The notes under the pieces are model-generated. The model worked only from the letters and a program-made list of their open reading frames with translations. It was not told the origin of the DNA and did not search any database. From Xylogone sp. PMI_703 (lineage: Eukaryota > Ascomycota > Leotiomycetes), in contig JAJTUQ010000004.1 of the NCBI GenBank assembly GCA_021399445.1, positions 186,001 through 250,000 on the forward strand: 64,000 bases of DNA. Reading direction: 5' to 3'. How positions within the stretch are numbered: position 1 is the first letter of the stretch; every line of letters begins with the position of its first letter. A program made the position numbers and the translations under genes. Shown here piece by piece: positions 31,250-51,544 of this stretch.

Positions 31250-31912
31250 TCATGCCCACGTCAAAGGGACGCAGGTCTGAAACATCAATGGACTATGAGT
31301 GTAGTCACGTTGGAACCACCAGCCATTCTTTGGATCATATGCCCTCGCGATTAAACCAGCAATGGTCTTTGCACAGTGAGCTGTGTGGTGCATATCATAC
31401 GACTTGCTATCTATCATGGGGAGCTTTTTCTCAACTGCAATTGCAAGTTTTCGCCATGCGTACAGACAATGCTCATCATGGAAGTACCGCGTGTAAGCGT
31501 CCTCTTCGTCACCCGAGCGCAAACGATCCATGTTTGATGGGATGGTCATGTTTACATCTTGGTACCATTCACGATCGCTAAATGGGTTATATTCGTCGGA
31601 AGGCTCATTGAAGTAACAAGCTTCGGGAATCCAGGAGCGCTGCATTGGCTCATAATGACATCCTGCTGCTCGAGCTGAAGCAGCTGTCTCTCCGCAAGGT
31701 ACCCATTCAAACTGTTGCCGATAGTGTCGTGCTTCCACGATTAGGCGAATAACCCAACCAAGAAGCAATATGGAAATGCCTCCAGCCACGAGGAATGTGA
31801 TAATCCTCCTGTTTGCTCCAGTTTTCTGCGTTGGTAGCACGGATTCTATTCCAGTCAGTGGCTCAGACACATCATCATCTGAGGAAACTGAGCTATATCT
31901 AGGCTTGTCCAT
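31250..31912 (-). CDS. UstYa-like membrane protein with two HxxHC motifs (copy 1)
   Basis: A single exon encodes 220 residues. A polar cytoplasmic N-terminus is followed by one membrane helix (about 36-60) and a lumenal domain. That domain has a cysteine motif (PCGETAASARAAGCHYEP, then WIPEAC, 72-99), HDEHC (145-149) and HTAHC (176-180). Paired HxxHC motifs after one membrane helix are the hallmark of UstYa/DUF3328 proteins, which oxidise or cyclise dikaritin peptides in the secretory pathway. The N-terminal cysteine motif is not a UstYa hallmark I know, so this may be a sister family. It is divergent from the repeat precursor at 32,956, with about 1 kb of shared promoter, and paralogous in layout to 38,874-39,540. 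Activity is inferred, not shown. Confidence 0.75.
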   Translation of the reverse strand: MDKPRYSSVSSDDDVSEPLTGIESVLPTQKTGANRRIITFLVAGGISILLLGWVIRLIVEARHYRQQFEWVPCGETAASARAAGCHYEPMQRSWIPEACYFNEPSDEYNPFSDREWYQDVNMTIPSNMDRLRSGDEEDAYTRYFHDEHCLYAWRKLAIAVEKKLPMIDSKSYDMHHTAHCAKTIAGLIARAYDPKNGWWFQRDYTHSPLMFQTCVPLTWA

Positions 31913-32955
31913 GGCTTCCAGATTTGGACCGTCTCAAGGAAAAGGTCTTCGTGAGATTGATTGTTGTTGTTGACAATCCCAATACGTAATCTAACCTCTG
32001 ACAAGAGTTGAGTAATGCAGATGGCTAATGTTCAAAACGAATAAGTTCCACGTATGAGTTGATAAGAAGTCTTTGATTGCACGAGAATGAGATGTCGGGA
32101 GGAGGAGGAGAAGAAGGAAAAGATGGAGAGTTGGTTTACAGTCTCATTTCACCCATTAGAATATGAAAGCGGGAGACTGTTGAGACCGCTGCTTCAGCAA
32201 TTATCTTGTTAGTGTACACTCCATCCTCAGCTGACTCAATTTCCCGGAACCTCTACTCCACTTAATTCTCAGCTACCCCTTATTACTACATCTGGGAAGA
32301 GGGTAGATGAAGAAAGACGGTAAGGTGAGATTACCGCAAAGTCCACCCTGTGGGGGGACACATACTAATCTGATTCCTTGTATCAGAGTAGTCCAGATTG
32401 TCAGCTTACCATTTACCTACATACTAATCGAAGATATTGTATAATCTCACGAAAATAGCCCTCGACCTAAGCCCCTGTATTACTCTCTACCGTATACTAC
32501 CGAATGATTGCACTGTATAGCGTTACATTCGCTTTCTAGTTCGAGAGCCATTTTCATGGGATAATCACGGTATATGCTGAGTCTCCTATATTTACCTTCC
32601 TTAAGTGGTTATGCCGTTGGTGATCAGAGATCAAAGCACCATGTTGTGGTGTACCAGCAGCATTAATCTTAGTACTGTACATGGCTAGCTAAGTTCATCA
32701 GATAGTAGCTCGGACCGACTTAATACAGTAAAATCTTACAATCAAGGGGGTGTAAACTGGCCAAAGAGCTTCTCATCATTTGACGGTTTGGTTAATGTAT
32801 TTGTAACACTTGAAGTGGAATTTGGTCTTGGAAAATACTAATATATAAAGCAGACTTCTTCCACTGACTTACTTCTACAACCAACTATCACATTCTTATC
32901 CTCTTCTGAATTATAATCTTTGACAGATTCTAAAGACCAAAAATTCATTACCAAG
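31913..32955. promoter_or_regulatory. Divergent promoter of UstYa-like gene 1 and the precursor
   Basis: A TATA box (TATATAA, 32842-32848) stands about 108 bases before the precursor ATG, followed by a pyrimidine-rich CTTCTACAACC-type start region. No repeated regulatory motif recognised beyond this. Confidence 0.5.
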
Positions 32956-33507
32956 ATGAAGCTCACAACTACCGTCCTCATAGCTTTAGCTGGTACTTCA
33001 TGGGCAGCTGCTATTCCCAGCCCACAATCCGGCGTGTCTCTTGCTGGGGAAATGAAAGCCCGTACTCAATCTTCACCATTCAGAGTTGAGAGTAACGAAG
33101 CTGAGGTTTTCAAGAGGAAGACTCAATCCGCTCCATTTAGAGTTGAGGCCGAGAATGTCAAACGCAAGACTCAGTCCGCACCATTTCGCGTTGAGGTTGA
33201 GAACGTAAAGAGAAAGACTCAATCTGCTCCATTTAGAGTCGAGGCTGAGAATGTCAAGCGCAAGACCCAATCAGCCCCATTCCGTGTCGAGGCTGAGAAT
33301 GTCAAGAGAAAGACTCAGTCTGCGCCATTCCGTGTTGAAAGTGCTGAAGTTCTCAAGCGCAAGACTCAGTCAGCCCCATTCAGACTCGAGAGCGCCGAGG
33401 TTCTCAAGAGAAAGACCCAGTCAGCTCCTTTCCGTGTTGAAAGTGCTGATGTCCTCAAGAGGAAGACTCAATCCGCTCCATTCCGCGTTGAGACCGCTGA
33501 GGCCTAA
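32956..33507 (+). CDS. Kexin-processed multi-repeat precursor peptide, candidate RiPP precursor
   Basis: A 183-residue product. The start ATG at 32956 follows a TATA box and gives a clear signal peptide (MKLTTTVLIALAGTSWAAA). After a short leader come nine units built on TQS[A/S]PFR[V/L]E with spacers such as AENV or SAEVL, separated by eight KRK sites. Kex2 would cut after KR to free eight or nine 14-18-residue peptides beginning KTQSAPFR. The repeats are tandem, and core residues are constant while third codon positions vary. This layout is that of dikaritin precursors (UstA, PhomA type) and of other fungal kexin-processed proteins. The cores contain Phe but no Tyr or Trp. It is flanked by two UstYa-like genes. 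Product and chemistry are inferred; a pheromone-like or structural peptide is the main alternative. Confidence 0.88.
   Translation: MKLTTTVLIALAGTSWAAAIPSPQSGVSLAGEMKARTQSSPFRVESNEAEVFKRKTQSAPFRVEAENVKRKTQSAPFRVEVENVKRKTQSAPFRVEAENVKRKTQSAPFRVEAENVKRKTQSAPFRVESAEVLKRKTQSAPFRLESAEVLKRKTQSAPFRVESADVLKRKTQSAPFRVETAEA
33064..33504 (+). repeat. Nine tandem 48-54-base coding repeats
   Basis: In-frame units starting at the ACTCAA/ACTCAG/ACCCAA/ACCCAG codons for TQS. Units 2-5 are 16 codons and units 6-8 are 17 codons. The first unit has SSPFR and a longer spacer (SNEAEVF) and the last ends the protein. Units differ mostly at silent positions. Confidence 0.95.
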
Positions 33508-36500
33508 GATCACAACACATATTGGCCAGTGGAGTGTCGATTGACTAAACCTAGTTATCAGGGGGTGCACACAGCGCTCGCAAAAAGGTACATCCTGGTT
33601 GGCGAGTATGGTCTATGTAGAGAAGGGGTGTTCTAGATGCTAGTAGATCGGGTTGGTCAGCTAAGGTGGAGATGTAGAAGGTTAAATGGAGTGATAGTAT
33701 TTCATTATTAGCATAGCATAGCAAATAGACTATTTGTTCTGTTATGAAGATCGTTTCCATACGAAGTGCATGATGTGCGCGCAAGTCAAATACAAGGAAC
33801 CATGCTCCCCGGGCGCTAAAATGTAAACAAACCCAGCGTATCATTCTGTCCCCAATATGAGAAAGAATGGCTAGTTTCAGTCCGTGTAAAGATCTGGTTC
33901 TCATCCAGCACTGGTCAAAAATTGAATCCTGTTATACAAGAAAAAAGCACAGCATGCCACCACCGCATTAATACGGCGCGCCCAGAACATGTGCCGGAGG
34001 GTGGTTGGGATTAGAGTATTGCCAAGGAATATCCCAGAAGCCCTGCATATACACAGCATCGTCGCTCCCGTATGCTTAATCGCCCCACTCGGTAATTAAT
34101 AACTAATTATAACTAATCACAATAGGACAATGGGACAATGGAAGCGGGTCAGCCGTGGCTTGAGGGTAGCTCACCGAGGCCGTAAACCAAAGCTTGGCTT
34201 CTTCGTGCCCCTGTGCAGGGTCAAGTTATACCGCCATCAGACCAAAATGCGGATACAGGAAATATAGTTCAGAAAAGAAAACGAACCATGACTGAACACA
34301 TACTACATCTAGGTGTGAACCTGTATCCTACCGTGCCGCTACAGTACCACGCATATGACAAGAGGTTCTAGATGCTTGATGTAACATCCACTCAGACCCG
34401 GGGGACTATCCCCACTGGAACTAGTGTGTGGTAAGTCGTATCAGCCTGTACTGTGTCCGATGCGGTAGGTAAGCACGCGACATTGAACTGAGCACGATCC
34501 GTATCCTAGGTTAAGTTAGTTAGCCTATGGCCACTCCGCTCAGCTCGGAATAAGACACGATATCACAGCTCACTACGACAATTTAATTGTTGGCACGCTA
34601 GAGTAATTAGCCTATTGTAGAGAAAAACAAAATTATTTACTCCGAGATTGAGCAGGTTACTCTTCACTCCGCGAGCATGGATACTTGATATCTCTGACTG
34701 CGTAATTATGCCATAGCTGCCACTTCTCGGACCAGGGTGCTTCAAGACATAAGATCTTTGCCGTGGTGGAGATTCTTCCTACGGGGAGATACCACGCATT
34801 GCTACGGCCGAGGCCTCTCCCTGTAGCCCTCACCGCAGAGACAAGGCTTCTCCCACCCGCTTCGTGAACCCTGAATCGTGAGTGGTTTGCCGCCTTTTTG
34901 CCGCCTTTCAGATGTTATTCCATGACCCTGTCGAGATTTCGTACATGGGGCGTACATCATCATTTCCGCACCGGTGTTCGAGACCGATTTTGAAATCCGC
35001 AAAAATCCTGAAAACTTAACCCCCGTCAAATATCAATGTCTTAAGGATAACCAGATCCGATGATTTATGAGCTACTTCATAATATACATTTTTGTTGGCC
35101 TTTTTTATCTGTAAATGTAATATGATTATATTATAGGATGAATACAAACCGGCGATTTTACTCTGTTATCAAATGTAGATGTTCTACACATAAAAAACCA
35201 GATCCGTTATTCTCTTGACTTTAAAGTTATATAGTTTTATATTTTTAGCCCTGGTGTAAAGAAGCCAACTAAATATTGATTAAACAAGAGAAAATATAGT
35301 TTATAGAGTTTTATGAATATTCAAGGATTTTACCCGAATAGGCGAATTTTCATGATTTTTTGGAGGCGTTTAGGTTACCTCGAACTCTACTGGGTATCAT
35401 TGCCACATATGGAGAATAACAGTATTTGACGGAGCAACTTAAGATTGTTCAAGACAAGAACGCTGGTAACGACAATACAACGTTACTATAGACTCTGAAT
35501 ATGTACGAGCTCCTGCGATAGCGGTTACCTAAGATGGTCGACCGCAAACGGAAATTAGGTTTGAAATTGAAACGTTGACAAATTTAGAGCTTGAAAGGAT
35601 GAGAAAGCTCACGGAGTGCGTTACAGCCTCATTGTCTTCCCACTGTTGTGGTGCTTAGCCTGGCTACCTAAAATTGTCATTAGTTGCTCTAAGGAGCATA
35701 CGATAGACGAGTGAAACGTCAAACTAAAGATTACGCACCATAAGATCTTAGTTACTCGCCTCTTCAGATACCTGTAGTATGCACAGACTTCTGGAATTGG
35801 CAGGTGAGCACGCGACGGATTAGTGCAATGCTTGCCTATGCTGTACCAGTAACAAATGCTCCACGGTAATAGAATTCCCCCAATGCTGTAAGGGTCTCGC
35901 TGCTTTACCATAAAATTGGGACTTTCCCGGCATCTGCATCCGCCAAAGTCTGATAGTGATCTTACGCCGAACCCTTGTATATGGTGTAGATACAACACTA
36001 TCGTGGCTGTCAATACGGCTTCCACGACCCTAAGAGCCTTCACTTCCTATTGAGTCCACAATTTAGGGACAAGGCATCTGACCGTTGTCTAATCATGCTA
36101 GGATTTGATCATTAATCGGCTTACTCAGTACCCCCGGTGGGGACCAAGCTAACGCACCGTATCTTTCGTCCCTGTCCGTTCACCCTGGAATTTACCCCTA
36201 TCAACAATTACCAGATCGAAAGAGATCCCCAACAGAAGATTAGTGATTCTATCGTGTTTCCGAGGTAGGAGCAATGGCGTTCTGAGCTTGAGGTTACAAT
36301 AATTCTACTATCGCTCCCCTTAAATGCATCCCCCAAGCAGTGTACAGTAAAAACGAGGGTTGAAGTGGATGTTATTATGGGCACTTAGTGAGATCTAACA
36401 AGGACGCTAAAGATTTCATTCTCTTATTTGAGTAATATTTTTATTTGAGAAAATGTCCCCAATACAGGGGATTGAGCAATCAGACCATTGAATGACCTTG

Positions 36501-36984
36501 TTTACACTGCTTTGGGGATGCATTTAGGGGGGGATAGTAGAACCATTGATAGAACCAAACTTGCTGATTGTATTGTCATTATTGTCGTTATTGAATGGCA
36601 AAAAAACAATTGAGATTGAAACCTGTTCCCGTTTTTGCTCGTGATTGTGGTAAGTTACATATAAACCGACTAGGCGGGAAATACGCTAGCTCATGTACTC
36701 TCACTCTTGAACTCGTACAGTATGCGCACCAACACGGTGTCTTGGTCTTGTAACTGACTTACTAACAGGGATTATCCGCTTTACAAACTTTACGGAGAGT
36801 AAGCGTCGGCTTAGCCCTCAACAAAGTTGATCACTAAATATCTCGTTTAGATCAAGTAGGTGTAGCCAATTCTGTATCAGTATGCCCACACCATAGAAAA
36901 TTATACAACAAAGACATGTTCAGTAATATCAGCTGGTAAATAGAACTGCCTATGCACTTGACTTGGGTCGAGGCAGTGTTCAAA
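33508..36984. other. Gene-free 3.5 kb between the precursor and DOMON-b561 gene A
   Basis: No supported gene. Open frames here are short and unlike known proteins. 35,040-35,400 is very AT-rich. A MITE-like element lies at 36303-36542. The stretch may be decayed transposon sequence. Confidence 0.45.
36303..36542. mobile_element. MITE-like element with about 40-base imperfect terminal inverted repeats
   Basis: The left end 36303-36346 (TTCTACTATCGCTCCCC, AAATGCATCCCC, AGCAGTGTA) pairs with the right end 36501-36542 read in reverse, with a few mismatches. The total is 240 bases with an AT-rich centre and no coding capacity. No convincing target-site duplication is seen. Confidence 0.65.
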
Positions 36985-38491
36985 ATGAATCCCGCAAGTC
37001 TAATATTCTACCTCTTGACACATATCGTCCTCATCCAAGTTGTACGGTCATCACGTTTCTGTGAAGAAAGATCTAATCTCTGTATCAACTTCACCCTGGC
37101 CCAAAATGTGTCAACTGGCTACACAGACTTCTATATATCCATATCCTATAAATTCGGACATGATGGTGGCTGGGCGGCCCTGGGTACTGGCAACGTAATG
37201 GCTGGATCCTTAATGTTTATTGTATACCCGGATGAGCAGAAGAGTAAACTCCCAAGCACTCCTCTGAAATATTTACCAGGCTAATTGGTTAATTATTGAT
37301 AGAGATCTCTCTTAGCGTCCGAGCAGCTAGGTATGTGTATCGCTATTACATTCTTACTTGATTCTACGCACAAACTTCCTAACAAACACATCAATTGACC
37401 ATAGTGGACATGCTCAGCCTGAATCTAACTCAGATGTACCAGAGGTATGCGTCTTAAACTCTTCTCTTACAGCATTGGGCGAATCAAGTGTTGCGTTTGT
37501 TTGCTATGCCTGTGACCATTGGCCCGGGGTAAATGCTATGAGCCAAGCCCAGTCATTCATATGGGCGAAAAGGGACCATAGAATCATTCCTGGCATATCA
37601 ACAGAAGTTATGCTAGGAATACATACGGAAGCAGGTAAGTAAAAGCAAGATATTTTTTGTTCATGTCCTCTTATATGTATTTTGCATTAGTTAATTGGTA
37701 GATGCTGATGTAAAAATGGTAGGTTCATTCCAATTGGACTTGGCTCAAAGCTACCTAGATATAAATCAACAGCACCAAAGCTACATCGATGCAAATGATC
37801 AGTGGATGGCAGATACGGCTATGAAAACCAGCGCAGCCACGGAAACGAGTACTATCAAGACAAGTATGCGAGCTCTGCATGGTCTCACCCTTGGGTTCTC
37901 TTTCATGATACTATTTCCAGTTGGCACTGTGCTTATTCGCGCTAATTTGAAGCAATCATTTGTGTATCACTGGATCTGGCAGAGCTTTCTCGCAGCAATC
38001 TGCCTTGCAACTGTTATACTAGGCATAGCTTTCTCCCAGAAAAGTACAGATGTAGGTCCAAAAATCTAGCGACTTGCATACCCTTCTGACGGGTTGACGA
38101 TAGTTTCGTAACTTTCGCGATCCTCACCAGATATTAGGTCTAACTATTCTGAGCTGTCTCCTCTTGCAGATTATAATGGGGTATCGGCATCATACAAATT
38201 ACAAAGAGCTCAAACGTAGGACACTCGTATCCTACGGTCATATTTGGGTTGGATGGACCATTCTTATCCTTGGAGTTGTGAACACCAGAGTGTGAGTTTC
38301 GTGATAACAGTTAAGATTTCTATTGCTAACTTCCTAGGGGTCTCGCCTACTCTGTAGTTGACCGAAAATGGGTGATGTTGTGGGGCCTGGTTCTGATGGT
38401 CGACATGGTCGCCTTATTGTTTTATATTTGCTACAAACTGCAGGAATACAGAAGAAGCAGGACCGTGTCGTACATGCTTCTCAATAATTAG
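36985..38491 (+). CDS. DOMON-cytochrome b561 membrane protein A
   Basis: Six exons join in frame to 395 residues: 36985-37243, 37303-37330, 37405-37634, 37723-38051, 38104-38291 and 38338-38491. A signal peptide is followed by a DOMON domain (GHDGGWAALGTGNVMAGSLMF), which binds haem b in relatives. The b561-type membrane part follows, with HGLTLGFSFMILFPVGTVLIR, DPHQILG, a GYRHH loop, SYGHIWVGW and further helices. Such proteins move electrons across membranes. Exon sizes match gene B closely (the second exon is exactly 28 bases in both), which proves recent common descent. The ATG at 36985 is preferred to 36952 because it starts the signal peptide directly. A link with the nearby UstYa-like proteins is inference. 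Confidence 0.85.
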
Positions 38492-38873
38492 CAATGTGAC
38501 CTCCTAACAAATGCGTTTTATTTATGATCTTATAATATGAAGGGTCCAACATTAAAGATTGAGAACGTTATTGTGTGTTATGTTGAGGTATTCTGATTTG
38601 CTTTAAGCTAAAGAAGAAATAAATACGGCATTCTGTAGTATAAGCATGTTAAGATAGCGGTCAACGATGGCCTCTACAACTAAAAGTTATTCGTCTAAGG
38701 ATTTCTGACAGTTTGGCTGAATTGTTTCAAAACGAACTATAAATGTTTTATTCTAGTAAATTACTCTATTAGACTCCCTTTAAGTTAATCATCAGGTACA
38801 ATAAGACTTATAGTAATGGGTTACAATACACCCGGGTGACATCATCTCGTGGTAGCTATGTAAAATATCAAAA
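38492..38873. other. Short spacer between convergent genes
   Basis: AT-rich. Nothing recognised. Confidence 0.5.
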
Positions 38874-39540
38874 TCATTGCACATCGGAGTCAAGAGCCAC
38901 TGATGCTCCTACCGCGCCATCCCAGGTTGTGATCATTGCTATGCAATGAATAATATGATCCTCAGTATCGTACCGTGGCTCTACAGTGACATGATTATAC
39001 CTCGCTCGAAACTGCTTCCTCCAGTAGAAGAGACAGTGCAGTATGTGCCACTCAGAGCTCGAAAACCAGTGAAAATCTTCATCACCTCCCTTAGTCTGCA
39101 ACTCTTCTAGGCTTATCTCCTGACTCAGGTTCCCGTCCCTCCAGTACTTCCATTCTCCATTAGGCCCATCACCAGATTTTTCAAATTCGTCAGAGAGTTG
39201 TTCATCCAGACAGTGCGGCGGTAGCCAAGCTGATGCAAGAGGGTCGTATTTGCAACCCATTTCGATTGCTTCAGCGACAGTGTTACCACAATTGCAGATA
39301 CCAGGAGGCACTTGTCCTGTATTAGCTATATGGTCTTTCCGGATCATTCTTCCATCTTGGTCACAGATAAAAACTGGATTTAGGATTGTGAATAAACCGG
39401 GTATTGCTAAGCTGAGTAGTATAAAGTCTTTTAACACCAGTAGAGGATATCGGAAATATTCCTTGAGAATTCTATGAAGTCCTTGTGGTTCGTCGATAGT
39501 CGTATAGTCACCTCTTTCAGCAGAATGGTCACACTCTAGA
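38874..39540 (-). CDS. UstYa-like membrane protein with two HxxHC motifs (copy 2), first exon unresolved
   Basis: The open frame runs from a likely acceptor (CCAG, exon from 39540) to the stop at 38874, about 222 residues. No ATG lies in frame, so a short upstream first exon is needed and is not identified. The order is polar, a membrane helix (FILLSLAIPGLFTILNPVF), a cysteine motif (CNCGNTVAEAIEMGCKYDP, WLPPHC), a GPNGEWKYW block, WHILHC followed by FYWRKQFR, then DHIIHC. The spacing mirrors the protein at 31,250-31,912, so both belong to one family with two HxxHC motifs like UstYa/DUF3328. It sits between the two DOMON-b561 genes, which suggests joint function with the precursor. Confidence 0.72.
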
Positions 39541-40337
39541 CTGGCCGAGGGTTGGATCCTAAGTTGACATTACTTAGCCTTGAACAGCATAAATTTAAGA
39601 GACAATTTGGCACACTTTGTGTATTTTTGACCCATTGCTCCTCTGTTCGGAATACCCCTCTCAGCTTTGGGAGGGCTGATTCAGCAGTTTCAATAGCGTT
39701 CGCATAAAAGGCAACACGATTTTTTCTTTTTTTGAGAGTGCCGTTGAATAGTGGTCCTTTCAGGAAGGGAATAAAGGGTGACATAGCCCGAAAGCTAACA
39801 GGTAGGGTAGAAATGCAGAGCCCAGTTTAGAGTCTCCAGCAGTATCAAGGAAACTAGTCAAGAAAGTAATAATGCCTTGCGCTGAAAATCTTTTGGCGGA
39901 TTTGATATTTTAATCTGCTTATGCTGATAATTAATACAACGGCGCATTCGGAATGTGCGGTGCCATGTTATCCGGGCGGAACGCTACTAATACGGTAATT
40001 ATACTAATGCACGGACGGGATTTAGCTTTGAGAGCATGGTATCCTGGGCTCACAGTTCTTGGCGGCCTTGGCAACGACAACCTTGTCGCGGGCTGGGATG
40101 TTACGAAACTGAATAGCCGGTTTAGGTCCTAGGTCCTAGAGTTGCAAGGGCAGAGTTTGATTCCAAAGATGGCAGGATGCAGTAATATCCCATGCGGATG
40201 ACATACCTGTAAGCTTGGACATGTGATGGTTTTGAGCTTGCACCTGTTGTGTGCTGTGTTTCAGTTGTAAGTCTGGATGCTTTCGACCGTCCAGGTCTTT
40301 CTCCTGTTTTTACTTCTCGCCTGGTTTCTTCATCGAT
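39541..40337. other. Divergent spacer before DOMON-b561 gene B
   Basis: May hold the missing first exon of UstYa-like copy 2 in its left part (about 39,540-39,800). Otherwise nothing recognised. Confidence 0.4.
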
Positions 40338-41846
40338 ATGGCTAGGCGTTTACTGTGTTTAATGACAGCATGCTTTCTGCTATCAATTCATGTTGGAGTG
40401 GTACATAGTTCTATGCAATACTGCTATGAAGACTTACAAGTGCCCATCCATTTTTGCCTTGCGGTCGAGACATGGCACAACAAGACATCATCTTCGACAG
40501 ACCTCCTGGTAACATTTGGACATCAAAGGTTTCGAGAAGGTGGATGGACTGCTGTAGGGGTTGGCAGAAGTATGTTCGGAGCTTTAATGTTTATTGAATA
40601 TACAGGAATTGAAGAAGGTAATGATAGCTATTTCTGACGTCTTATGCTGTATTTTACAATAACGAAAACCTTGAACTAACAGATTCCAATAGCACCTGTC
40701 TTTAGTCCTCGTCATGGAAGGTTAGTGAAGCTCGATTCGTTAATGACTATGACTATGCTCCTGAGCTAATACCGACTTCTCAATTGACAGAGGCCACGTT
40801 GAACCCCGACCTTCTGATGCACTACCTGAAATCCATGTCTGGAATCTTGCTATGAACAATAGCCGCTGGCTTGAAGCTAGTTTTACATGTTATGGCTACG
40901 ATAAATGGGTTGTGGTTGACAAACAGGCCGACTTACAGCAACTAATCTGGGCTACAAACACTCGATTTAATACCGACGACGCACTGGTAGATACAGAGCT
41001 CAGTATCCACCAAGAACATGGCCGGTTTGCTCTTGATATGAAGCAAGCACAAAGCCATGGCGAGATGCCTACGATACCGGTAATCGATTTTACAAAACCA
41101 AATACTACTGAGGATGATCACTATAGACATGGTGATACATGGCTTTCTTTTTGGGCGTCGTTGTTACCTTCCTTGCATGGAGTCTTGCTTAGCTTCTCAC
41201 TCACGGTATTCTTTCCAGTTGGAGCTATCATAATCCGTAGCGGCTCTAGTCGGGCATTTCAAATGCACTTATTCTTTCAACTCACCGCTTCATTCCTATG
41301 TCTTGTCGGTGTTAGTATTGCCGGATCTCAAATTATTGCTAGCGGATCGGTAAGATGATGAAGGGCGCTTTCCAAATATCTTTACTCATCCACAGTTATA
41401 GCAGGCAACTTATTTTCGCGAACCTCATGTGCTATTCGGAACACTCCTTGTGACCCTCATCGCAATCCAGATACTCCTGGGTCATACTCATCACCAACGG
41501 TATAAACATAACGCAAAATCAATTAGTATAACCTTCTGGCATGTTAATTTAGGCCGTGTCATCGTAGTAGGAGGTTGTCTCAATGTTCTTTTGTAAGTTA
41601 CGCTGGGAAGTCTGGATAGTATCGTGCTACCAAAGGTGCCGTAGAATATACTGACCGACCTTCTCCAGAGGTTTACGTTTGGCCGGGAGTTCTGTATTAA
41701 TCAAGATTCTATTTACTACCGTATCCCTCCTTGATATCGGCATCGTCGCAAGCCTTTCTTACATAAAATATAAGGAGCGTGCTACAATGCCACCGGTTTC
41801 GTATGAGGATGATATTCCGTTGCTTGACACTGCTGAGCGAAAATGA
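40338..41846 (+). CDS. DOMON-cytochrome b561 membrane protein B
   Basis: Five exons join in frame to 411 residues: 40338-40617, 40693-40720, 40791-41349, 41402-41592 and 41669-41846. A signal peptide (MARRLLCLMTACFLLSIHVGVVHSS) precedes a DOMON domain with EGGWTAVGVGRSMFGALMFIEY. The membrane part has LHGVLLSFSLTVFFPVGAIIIR, REPHVLFGTLL, GHTHHQRY, HVNLGRVIVVGG and two last helices. It is a paralogue of protein A, with identical phase and length of exon 2. It probably passes electrons across the secretory or plasma membrane. The fourth-exon acceptor has two near-equal AG choices three bases apart, changing one residue. Confidence 0.86.
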
Positions 41847-49066: not shown

Positions 49067-49668
49067 TTTGACGATGATATTGGTGGTATTTAGAAAGTGT
49101 TTGTGCAGCAGAACTTAAGATGCTGGCGGATAATCATTGCTATACGGATAGAAAGGTGGTACTTCTTATACTTAGACCTTACTTTACTTTCCGTGACAAG
49201 AATCGCGAGTAATTTCCTAAAGAATCGACGAGTTAGTTAAGCCCTTGGCATAAGGATAGTCTGAGTAGCCCCGTAAACATATCTGAGGGGCATATCGCCC
49301 CCAGATTTCTGCCCCGCGCCCCGCAGACTAGTTAACATGACATTATTGACGGGGAATGATTCAGATCCCGTAATTCCGAACAGTCGAAATAATAAGTCAT
49401 ATAGGAAAGTGCGCTGGATCCGAATCGTTGCGTAGGTAAACATAACGTGTTAAGGAGTTGGCATCTGGGGTGTGGGAAGGGAAAACCTATTCGGTGGGGC
49501 GGCATATCTTTCCCTGTTGTTCTATGGAGATACACTGCAATGCTTAGCGGAAGCTTTAAATATTTCGCATGTAGCTATATCAAAGATATATTTTGTATCC
49601 TCTATATATGCAATATCTTATATGCTATTACAATAAAAATACGAACAGCTTTACTTATATCAATCATT
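49067..49668. promoter_or_regulatory. Divergent promoter with two abutting GCCCCGC heptamers
   Basis: GCCCCGC occurs twice in tandem at 49311-49324 (minus-strand GCGGGGC). The same heptamer occurs four times upstream of the P450 and flavin monooxygenase. It matches the C2H2-type CreA consensus SYGGRG, but could also serve the local C2H2 regulator. Confidence 0.45.
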
Positions 49669-51544
49669 ATGCCTACTACCGCTGAGATATATCAATCCAG
49701 ATTCCCGGATTTGGAATGGTACCCCCTGCCAAACCCTGAAGATCACCCCCGCTACACTTATTATGGTTTCAAACCCGAGCGAGTCTTATTAGAAAAAGGC
49801 CATGTTAAATTTCCTGGTCGTCGACCATTTGCTTCAGATGCAATATTGGAGAGAGATGTTGCAATCCAAATGAGAGATGGGGTCAAGATATATGCCGATA
49901 TTTTCCGTCCTGTCACCTCAGATCGTGAGCTTAAAGTTCCTGCAATTCTTCCCTGGAGTCCTTATGGCAAGTCAGGAACTGGCTGCCAGCATTATGAGAG
50001 CATGGCACCTTTCCGTGTTGGTCTGCGTTTAGATCAGACCTCCGGGTATGAGAAGTTCGAGGGCCCTGATCCCGCTGACTGGGTGCACCGTGGATATGCG
50101 ATTGTCAATATTGACGCTCGGGGTGCCAATAAATCCGAAGGAAATATAGTATTCTGGGGCCAACAAGAAGCTGAAGACATATATGATGCCGTTGAATGGA
50201 TCTCAGCACAGCCATGGTGTAATGGTTCCGTCGGCATGGCTGGTAACTCATGGTTAGCCATTTCACAAATCAACTTTGCATCCCGTCTGAAACACCCTGC
50301 ACTTAAAGCGATAGCACCTTGGGAGGGTCGAAATGATATCTACCGAGACTCACTTTCTCGAGGTGGAAAAAAACACAATGAGAGTCTCCACAAATTTCTA
50401 TTGACTGGATTTGCTGGTCCAAACTCTGCAGAGAATATGCCCCTGATGCTCCAAAACCATCCGTTTTTCGATGATTATTGGGAAAGCAAATATATCCACA
50501 CGGAGAACATTGATATACCAGTCTACGTTGTCGCATCCTTTTCGTCTCAAATCCATAGCCGCGGGTCGTTTCATACGTTCCGGACAGCGAAATCTGCGCA
50601 GAAGTGGCTGCGGGTCCATCCATATCAAGAGTGGTATGATCTATATCGTCTAGAAATGGTTGATGATCTACAGAAGTACTTTGATCGCTTTCTTAAGCAT
50701 ATCCAAAACGGCTGGGAAAATGATACACCACCTGTTCATCTCTCCTTGCTTGGTTTTGAGGCTAGTGGCGGTATAGCACAAAGCATTTGCGAACGGCCAG
50801 AAAAAGAATGGCCTTTGGCTAGACAGATATTAAAGACATTCTACCTTGATGCCTCTGAAAATAAGCTTGAGCCGCTGAAAGCAGAAAATGTATCATCAAT
50901 TTCTTATGCCAGCAAAGATTTAGATGCTCACTCGGTAAGTTCCATTACTCGTTTTGTTATCCAGTTCGCCTCATAGTACTATTGAATTGAATTGAAAATA
51001 ATCTATTAAATCATAGGATTTCACTCTCTATTTCGATAAATTCACTGAAATAGCTGGTTACGCTAAAGTAATCCTTTGGATGTCCTGCAAAGACAAAGAC
51101 GACCTTGACGTTGCAGTACAGATTCGAAAAATATCTGAAGAAGGAAACCTACTGGAGTATCTCAACTATCCATGCCCTGTACCGATTGAGAAAGTACCAA
51201 ATGTCAATACCGCCAAGTACTTGGGGCCACAAGGACTTTTGCGTACTTCACACTCAATCACGAAAGTGGATGAGCTTTCTACTGACCAGGAGATTTATTA
51301 CAAGCACGACCGACGTGAATCAATCTCTCCAAGTTCTATTATTAGGCTAGAAATCACATTATGGCCTATGGGAATGGTGTTTGCACCCGGTGAGGGAATT
51401 AGACTTCGAGTTTCCGGGCATGACATGTGTTATCAAGAGACCGATAAGATCATCGGGGCATCAGTGAATACTGAAAACGTAGGAGATCATGTAATCTACA
51501 CTGGTGGAGAGTATGATTCGCATTTAATTCTACCGTTCATTTAA
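49669..51544 (+). CDS. CocE/S15-type (X-Pro dipeptidyl-peptidase-like) hydrolase
   Basis: Two exons, 49669-50934 and 51017-51544, encode 597 residues. The alpha/beta-hydrolase part starts RDVAIQMRDGVKIYADIFRP and has WSPYGKSG and the nucleophile elbow GMAGNSWLA (Ser). WLRVHPYQEWYDL carries the likely catalytic His. A C-terminal jelly-roll (LRLEITLWPMG, EGIRLRVSGHD) is typical of CocE/NonD hydrolases and S15 peptidases. I do not see the usual acid (Asp) at the expected VVASFSS position, so this is a fungal subfamily. It may be an esterase or a peptidase. In a peptide cluster a peptidase role would make sense, but that is inference. An ATG at 49669 is chosen because upstream sequence is AT-rich and lacks domain sequence. 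Confidence 0.88.

Follow-up and report, generated by a model that had tools for sequence, protein, structure and literature searches.

The window analysed here is a 64,000-nucleotide stretch of Xylogone sp. PMI_703 (contig C20, positions 186001-250000; genome of 50.1 Mb), and it carries a compact cluster whose genes, over positions 31250-41846, follow the order HxxHC1 (-), repeat precursor (+), CYBDOM-A (+), HxxHC2 (-) and CYBDOM-B (+). The HxxHC proteins are named after their paired HxxHC motifs, while the CYBDOM proteins combine a DOMON domain with cytochrome b561. With a probability of about 0.6, the locus encodes a Kex2-type pathway for a ribosomally synthesized and post-translationally modified peptide (RiPP), in which likely dicopper HxxHC enzymes receive electrons from the CYBDOM proteins. 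We hold the RiPP part with considerable confidence, and the electron-feeding part, which is drawn by analogy with other systems, may be right at close to even odds.

The repeat precursor and the HxxHC proteins

The precursor begins with a hydrophobic, signal-peptide-like start, MKLTTTVLIALAGTSWAAA (judged by eye and hydropathy only), and continues as an array of units of 13-19 amino acids, in each of which the seven-residue core is followed by V/L-E and then by an acidic spacer; each of the eight junctions reads KRK. The sequence-only reading had counted nine TQSAPFR units; the nine units are present, and one of the cores is TQSSPFR. According to PMC7329392, a Kex2-processed repeat protein (KEP) has at least three repeats of at least 8 amino acids between KR, KK, RK or RR sites and a signal peptide called by SignalP, and the precursor falls within the repeat part of that definition. 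Over the seven core codons of the nine units, the proportion of synonymous differences (pS) is 0.71 versus 0.05 for nonsynonymous ones (pN). The array is thus under purifying selection, its DNA having drifted synonymously while the peptide was kept constant. Since the spacers, at few sites, give pS/pN ratios similar to those of the core, a constrained coding repeat is shown and not a sharply bounded core. Both Tandem Repeats Finder and an open-frame repeat scan returned this array as the sole one in the whole window, and both versions of the open-frame scan found nothing in 60 Markov-2 sequences of 10 kb.

Two flanking proteins with paired HxxHC motifs had been described at this locus from the sequence alone, and both were confirmed, the motifs being HDEHC and HTAHC in HxxHC1 and HILHC and HIIHC in HxxHC2. 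The motifs are spaced by 31 and 30 residues, respectively, compared with 29-35 in the family members that were read and 30-50 in six classical UstYa proteins. Hydropathy indicates one membrane segment in HxxHC1, and in HxxHC2 one strong segment and one weaker segment that covers the second HxxHC. The database search with HxxHC1 gave 46 matches, itself counted, and no precomputed Pfam domain is recorded for any of them; those named include Xylogone, Cadophora, Chlorociboria, Pseudogymnoascus, Hymenoscyphus, Talaromyces, Rhizodiscina and Pyrenula. The alignment of these 46 sequences shows little or no variation in CG, in C.YE.M...WIP..CY or in the His and Cys residues of the two HxxHC motifs. 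The predicted structure of HxxHC1 (predicted local distance difference test score, pLDDT, 86.9) places a membrane helix at residues 32-66 and the HxxHC motifs on helices 144-161 and 174-191, and this modelled layout is the one reported for CctR, a hydroxylase of the DUF3328 (UstYa, PF11807) family. At E <= 0.01, nine of 30 members of the HxxHC family match PF11807, the best at 1.1e-5.

A further HxxHC subfamily of about 410 amino acids, with a shared HVCPRD stretch between the HxxHC motifs, recurs in HxxHC clusters of this genome and scores near or under the UstYa cut-off.

HxxHC genes and repeat precursors across the genome

Searches of the same genome with HxxHC1 and HxxHC2 gave 42 and 39 matches, respectively, which merged by place into at least 41 genes in 24 clusters. 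A PF11807 match lies within 10 kb of 18 of the 24 clusters, compared with 2.3% of random points placed on the seven contigs used; the window cluster is among the six with no such match. Searched exon by exon, the genome contains 108 PF11807 matches, none of them in the window. Together with the at least 41 further HxxHC genes, these likely represent a large set of peptide-modifying enzymes.

Repeat precursors were surveyed by reading at least 8 kb in each of 15 clusters besides the window (of the other eight, six had been seen without a repeat in a 1.5-kb flank and two were unread), and 10 of the 15 contained one. Precursors were present in seven of the 12 clusters chosen without sight of a repeat, some of which had already been repeat-free in the 1.5-kb flank scan, and in all three chosen after a repeat had been seen in the flank. 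No precursor-like repeat was found by three methods in two random 10-kb stretches, which are few. Ascomycota strains average 5.25 Kex2-processed repeat genes each (PMC7329392), so that 10 in 15 stretches is far above expectation. No PF11807 match was found within 50 kb of the window cluster or of two of the 10 further precursor clusters (C19:0.86 and C20:0.73 Mb). The units of the C1:3.45 Mb precursor are apparently split by introns, and it was found by Tandem Repeats Finder and reading.

These neighbourhoods bear on the possibility that Kex2 simply frees unmodified peptides as a linear secreted signal or effector, like mating factors, with the neighbouring genes present by chance. PMC7329392 reports that 78% of Kex2-processed repeat proteins have no DUF3328 neighbour and that 65.6% of DUF3328-linked repeats contain Tyr, a residue that the present core does not have, and both figures fit such a peptide. 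Against it stand the two HxxHC genes within 6 kb, the company that this family keeps with precursors in 10 of the 15 surveyed clusters, and the near-complete lack of DUF3328 neighbours around mating-factor genes in that source; we consider a linear peptide quite unlikely.

Some precursors elsewhere in the genome differ in form. One with a 141-bp tandem period has apparently intron-split units and was missed by scans of open frames only. Two others, one of them with about 25 eight-residue units, have a single Arg in place of dibasic sites, and their processing may differ from Kex2 cleavage at KR. Another precursor lies together with UstYa and HxxHC genes and two tyrosinase matches (at C1:8096533 and at C1:8102267), and this cluster is likely of the dikaritin type.

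CYBDOM genes as candidate electron donors

CYBDOM-A matches PF16010 at 69.1 bits and CYBDOM-B at 55.7 bits (cut-off 27), and CYBDOM-A matches PF03188 at 31.6 bits (cut-off 23). For CYBDOM-B, Pfam reports no b561 domain at E 0.01, yet this protein aligns with CYBDOM-A across the whole b561 domain. The sequence-only reading had called them two closely related DOMON-b561 proteins; the domain assignment holds for both, but at 28% identity they are not closely related. Residues M72, H169, H232, H262, H297 and H335 are invariant in CYBDOM-A, CYBDOM-B and a relative on C19, and by comparison with the Arabidopsis CYBDOM protein HYP1 they are likely heme ligands (one Met and one His in DOMON, the other four His in b561). 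The predicted structure of CYBDOM-A, of only moderate confidence (pLDDT 68.5), combines a beta-sandwich with five long helices. Its best PDB matches are the cytochrome domains of pyranose and cellobiose dehydrogenase (1d7b, template-modelling score 0.77 of target), followed by dopamine beta-hydroxylase, and the match to ascorbate-bound cytochrome b561 (4o7g) is not significant (E 0.0068). As for the gene models, the CYBDOM frames are continuous once GT...AG introns are taken out, while the precursor and HxxHC1 are each one intact frame. CYBDOM-B is identical to NCBI P0047 (F5884DRAFT_899568), and CYBDOM-A is 98% identical to NCBI P0048 (395 amino acids), the two models differing at the third intron.

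The PF16010 search of the genome gave 13 matches, counted as 11 genes, two of which are in the window. Two of the nine others have an HxxHC gene nearby, at distances of 2.3 and 1.8 kb (assuming random gene placement in one genome, the binomial P is 0.0013 for a limit of 5 kb and 0.013 for one of 20 kb), and both are in clusters with a repeat precursor. One cluster (C19:6.461-6.474 Mb) comprises a 12-fold repeat precursor, three HxxHC genes, UstYa, tyrosinase and the closest non-window CYBDOM relative of both CYBDOM-A and CYBDOM-B. The other (C20:0.730-0.741 Mb) comprises an HxxHC gene, a CYBDOM gene, a UstYa-like gene below the cut-off and a precursor that has about 25 short units behind a signal-like start.

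CctR holds two coppers per monomer in its HxxHC...HxxHC site and needs O2, Cu(I) and electrons; for the oxidising lumen, its authors postulate that an accessory protein provides either electrons or Cu(I) (PMC12435403, 2025). HYP1 carries cytosolic ascorbate electrons across the membrane and reduces cupric substrates (PMC10784544), and the cytochrome domain of cellobiose dehydrogenase reduces a copper lytic polysaccharide monooxygenase (LPMO; PMC4507011). Taking these three together, electron feeding by CYBDOM is the most economical reading. An electron supply by the b561 proteins had been suggested from the sequence alone, and the linkage of the two genes outside the window and the needs of CctR strengthen that suggestion by analogy.

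In the proposed pathway, the precursor would enter the secretory pathway, where Kex2 would cleave at the KR sites seen between the units. HxxHC1 and HxxHC2 would be membrane-anchored, their HxxHC...HxxHC helices facing the lumen, and, judging from CctR, would bind two coppers and use O2 to modify the peptide. With Tyr missing from the core, the modification is likelier to be C-H hydroxylation or a crosslink involving Pro, Phe, Arg, Ser or Thr than the Tyr ether of classic dikaritins. CYBDOM would take up electrons from a donor in the cytosol, relay them over its two b561 hemes and its DOMON heme and reduce Cu(II) to Cu(I), as the cytochrome domain of cellobiose dehydrogenase does for copper LPMOs. 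Fungi probably use an ascorbate-like electron donor. The two CYBDOM genes may serve one HxxHC enzyme each or form a chain, and the TQSAPFR units would most likely yield a peptide with oxidative modifications.

Several observations weigh against this pathway, beginning with the assignment of its components. The sequence-only reading had proposed a DUF3328 profile search of the HxxHC pair and a comparison of the cluster in related genomes. Pfam gave no match for HxxHC1 and a UstYa score of 17.1 bits for HxxHC2 (cut-off 25), and no precursor homolog was found among 7993 candidates scored. A precursor paralog was likewise not found elsewhere in the same genome. In hhalign comparisons with the six UstYa proteins, 30 family members gave a weak match (probability 64.6, E 6e-5) and HxxHC1's own family a probability of 5.0, and no solved structure similar to the HxxHC1 model was found. 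Since the Pfam scores are below the cut-off, and from this profile comparison, the HxxHC family is likely a sister family of UstYa under its membership cut-off. Five of the 15 surveyed clusters showed no repeat precursor, at a reach shorter than the extension from 9 to 19 kb on which the C20:0.73 Mb precursor emerged, and the closest HxxHC1 paralogs (C19:1.48 Mb, L037) sit in one with none visible. Among 12 CYBDOM relatives, five of the six ligands are conserved at 90% or more and the third b561 His falls below that. The gene that ranks second among the non-window relatives of CYBDOM-B is unlinked, seven of the nine non-window CYBDOM genes are at least 68 kb from any HxxHC gene found, and the co-location rests on a single genome. 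Moreover, linkage to a CYBDOM gene is not general, as no PF16010 gene lies within 20 kb of 21 of the 24 HxxHC clusters, and most clusters would depend on unlinked genes or small reductants.

The scarcity of near CYBDOM genes also suits a RiPP pathway without electron feeding, in which the HxxHC proteins likely modify the peptide and CYBDOM serves, for example, metal uptake or self-protection. With copper, CctR works in vitro without a protein partner, and ascorbate, NADH or NADPH stimulate it (PMC12435403); the substrates that HYP1 reduces include iron chelates besides copper (PMC10784544). Such a division of roles is nevertheless unlikely, given that both linked CYBDOM genes outside the window sit in repeat-precursor clusters, that this degree of linkage is improbable by chance, and that CYBDOM-A and CYBDOM-B directly flank HxxHC2 on its two sides. 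A metal-binding peptide system, whose peptides would carry copper or iron to be released by CYBDOM through reduction, could draw on the metal reductase activity of HYP1 in the same source; it is highly improbable, as His, Cys, Asp and Glu are all absent from the core, even if the spacer is acidic, and no transporter was found in ten pieces scanned at 30-44 kb of the window.

Beyond the cluster, the window holds an X-Pro dipeptidyl-peptidase (S15) gene that could trim Pro-containing peptides, with nothing that ties it to the cluster, and a cytochrome P450 gene whose neighbours include an enoyl-CoA hydratase-like frame and an alpha/beta hydrolase; together they perhaps form a separate metabolic cluster.

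Table 1. Coordinates of the genes, arrays and clusters discussed in the text (bare positions are those of the window).
Feature	Position	Strand	Description
HxxHC1	31250-31912	-	220 aa; membrane-anchored HxxHC protein, likely copper enzyme
Repeat precursor	32956-33507	+	183 aa; single exon, signal-peptide-like start
Nine-unit array	33064-33504	+	One TQSSPFR and eight TQSAPFR; acidic spacers, KRK junctions
CYBDOM-A	36985-38491	+	DOMON and cytochrome b561; 402 aa; 6 exons: 36985-37243, 37303-37330, 37405-37634, 37702-38051, 38104-38291, 38338-38491
HxxHC2	38874-39569	-	Same family as HxxHC1; 231-aa open frame, start codon/possible first exon not fixed
CYBDOM-B	40338-41846	+	DOMON and cytochrome b561; 411 aa; 5 exons: 40338-40617, 40693-40720, 40791-41349, 41402-41592, 41669-41846
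X-Pro dipeptidyl-peptidase (S15)	49405-51544		8 kb past the cluster
Cytochrome P450	57481-58797
HVCPRD subfamily member	L045:1728-2957	-	About 410 aa
HVCPRD subfamily member	L049:351-1607	-	About 410 aa
HVCPRD subfamily member	L053:4302-5000 and L036:1-570	+	About 410 aa
Precursor with intron-split units	L038:6390-7031	-	141-bp tandem period
Precursor with single Arg	L053:1561-2402	-	About 25 eight-residue units
Precursor with single Arg	L034:3469-4029
Precursor in likely dikaritin-type cluster	L048:7992-8597
Precursor clusters, chosen without sight of a repeat	C19:6.46, C20:0.73, C1:3.45, C19:2.20, C3:0.24, C1:8.10, C12:7.72 Mb
Precursor clusters, chosen on a visible repeat	C21:5.39, C19:0.86, C1:1.01 Mb
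Surveyed clusters without repeat precursor	C19:1.48, C21:3.53, C21:2.51, C1:0.82, C1:6.86 Mb

Relation to known systems and significance

The locus shares with the dikaritins (ustiloxin, phomopsin and asperipin-2a) a signal-like precursor start, repeated cores between Kex2 sites and membrane-anchored HxxHC...HxxHC proteins within the cluster, whereas its HxxHC proteins are under the UstYa (PF11807) cut-off, its core is Tyr-free and it has two CYBDOM genes. Tyrosinase (PF00264), a marker of the ustiloxin and phomopsin clusters and not of asperipin-2a, has 13 matches in the genome and none in the window. A strict dikaritin was therefore rejected on the lack of a PF11807 match and of a tyrosinase in the window and on the Tyr-free core. 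The RiPP of dikaritin kind envisaged by the sequence-only reading is thus retained as a RiPP, by its genomic context of UstYa neighbours and precursors, while the dikaritin markers were not found.

Compared with CctR and the DUF3328 dicopper enzymes (PMC12435403), HxxHC1 has the same single membrane helix and HxxHC pair on two helices, presumably lumenal. The HxxHC family differs in being marked by a CG..(A)EA...GC...W(I/L)PxxC stretch, and copper binding and activity are here predicted from the genes; the locus offers a candidate for the electron supplier that the CctR authors postulate. Like HYP1 (PMC10784544), the CYBDOM proteins have DOMON, a five-helix b561, conserved residues that are likely ligands of three hemes and a signal-like start, but these fungal genes lie beside RiPP-type genes and not in metal nutrition. 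As in the cellobiose dehydrogenase-LPMO pair, in which a PF16010 heme domain reduces a copper oxygenase (PMC4507011), a PF16010 heme domain is present; in the CYBDOM proteins it is joined to a membrane b561 where cellobiose dehydrogenase has a flavin dehydrogenase, and the partner proposed for it is an enzyme that acts on peptides and is likely dicopper. Our literature search, which left most subscription journals outside its reach, found no paper joining DUF3328 with b561 or with DOMON.

UstYa-type copper enzymes hydroxylate, halogenate and crosslink peptides with an active site in the oxidising lumen, which raises the question of how their copper is reduced in the cell. We tentatively suggest, at slightly less than even odds, that the UstYa/HxxHC dicopper enzymes receive their electrons from CYBDOM proteins, which would be the missing donors and a lumenal counterpart of P450 reductase. 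By analogy, a membrane module of b561 and a heme domain would keep secretory-pathway copper reduced, and it would have been recruited to a subset of fungal RiPP clusters with the UstYa sister family. This large HxxHC family, mostly under the UstYa cut-off, often marks repeat-precursor clusters, to which TQSAPFR adds a Tyr-free core. As a plausible reductase gene lies beside likely enzymes of this kind in the window and at two other loci, the question of the copper reductant becomes directly testable.

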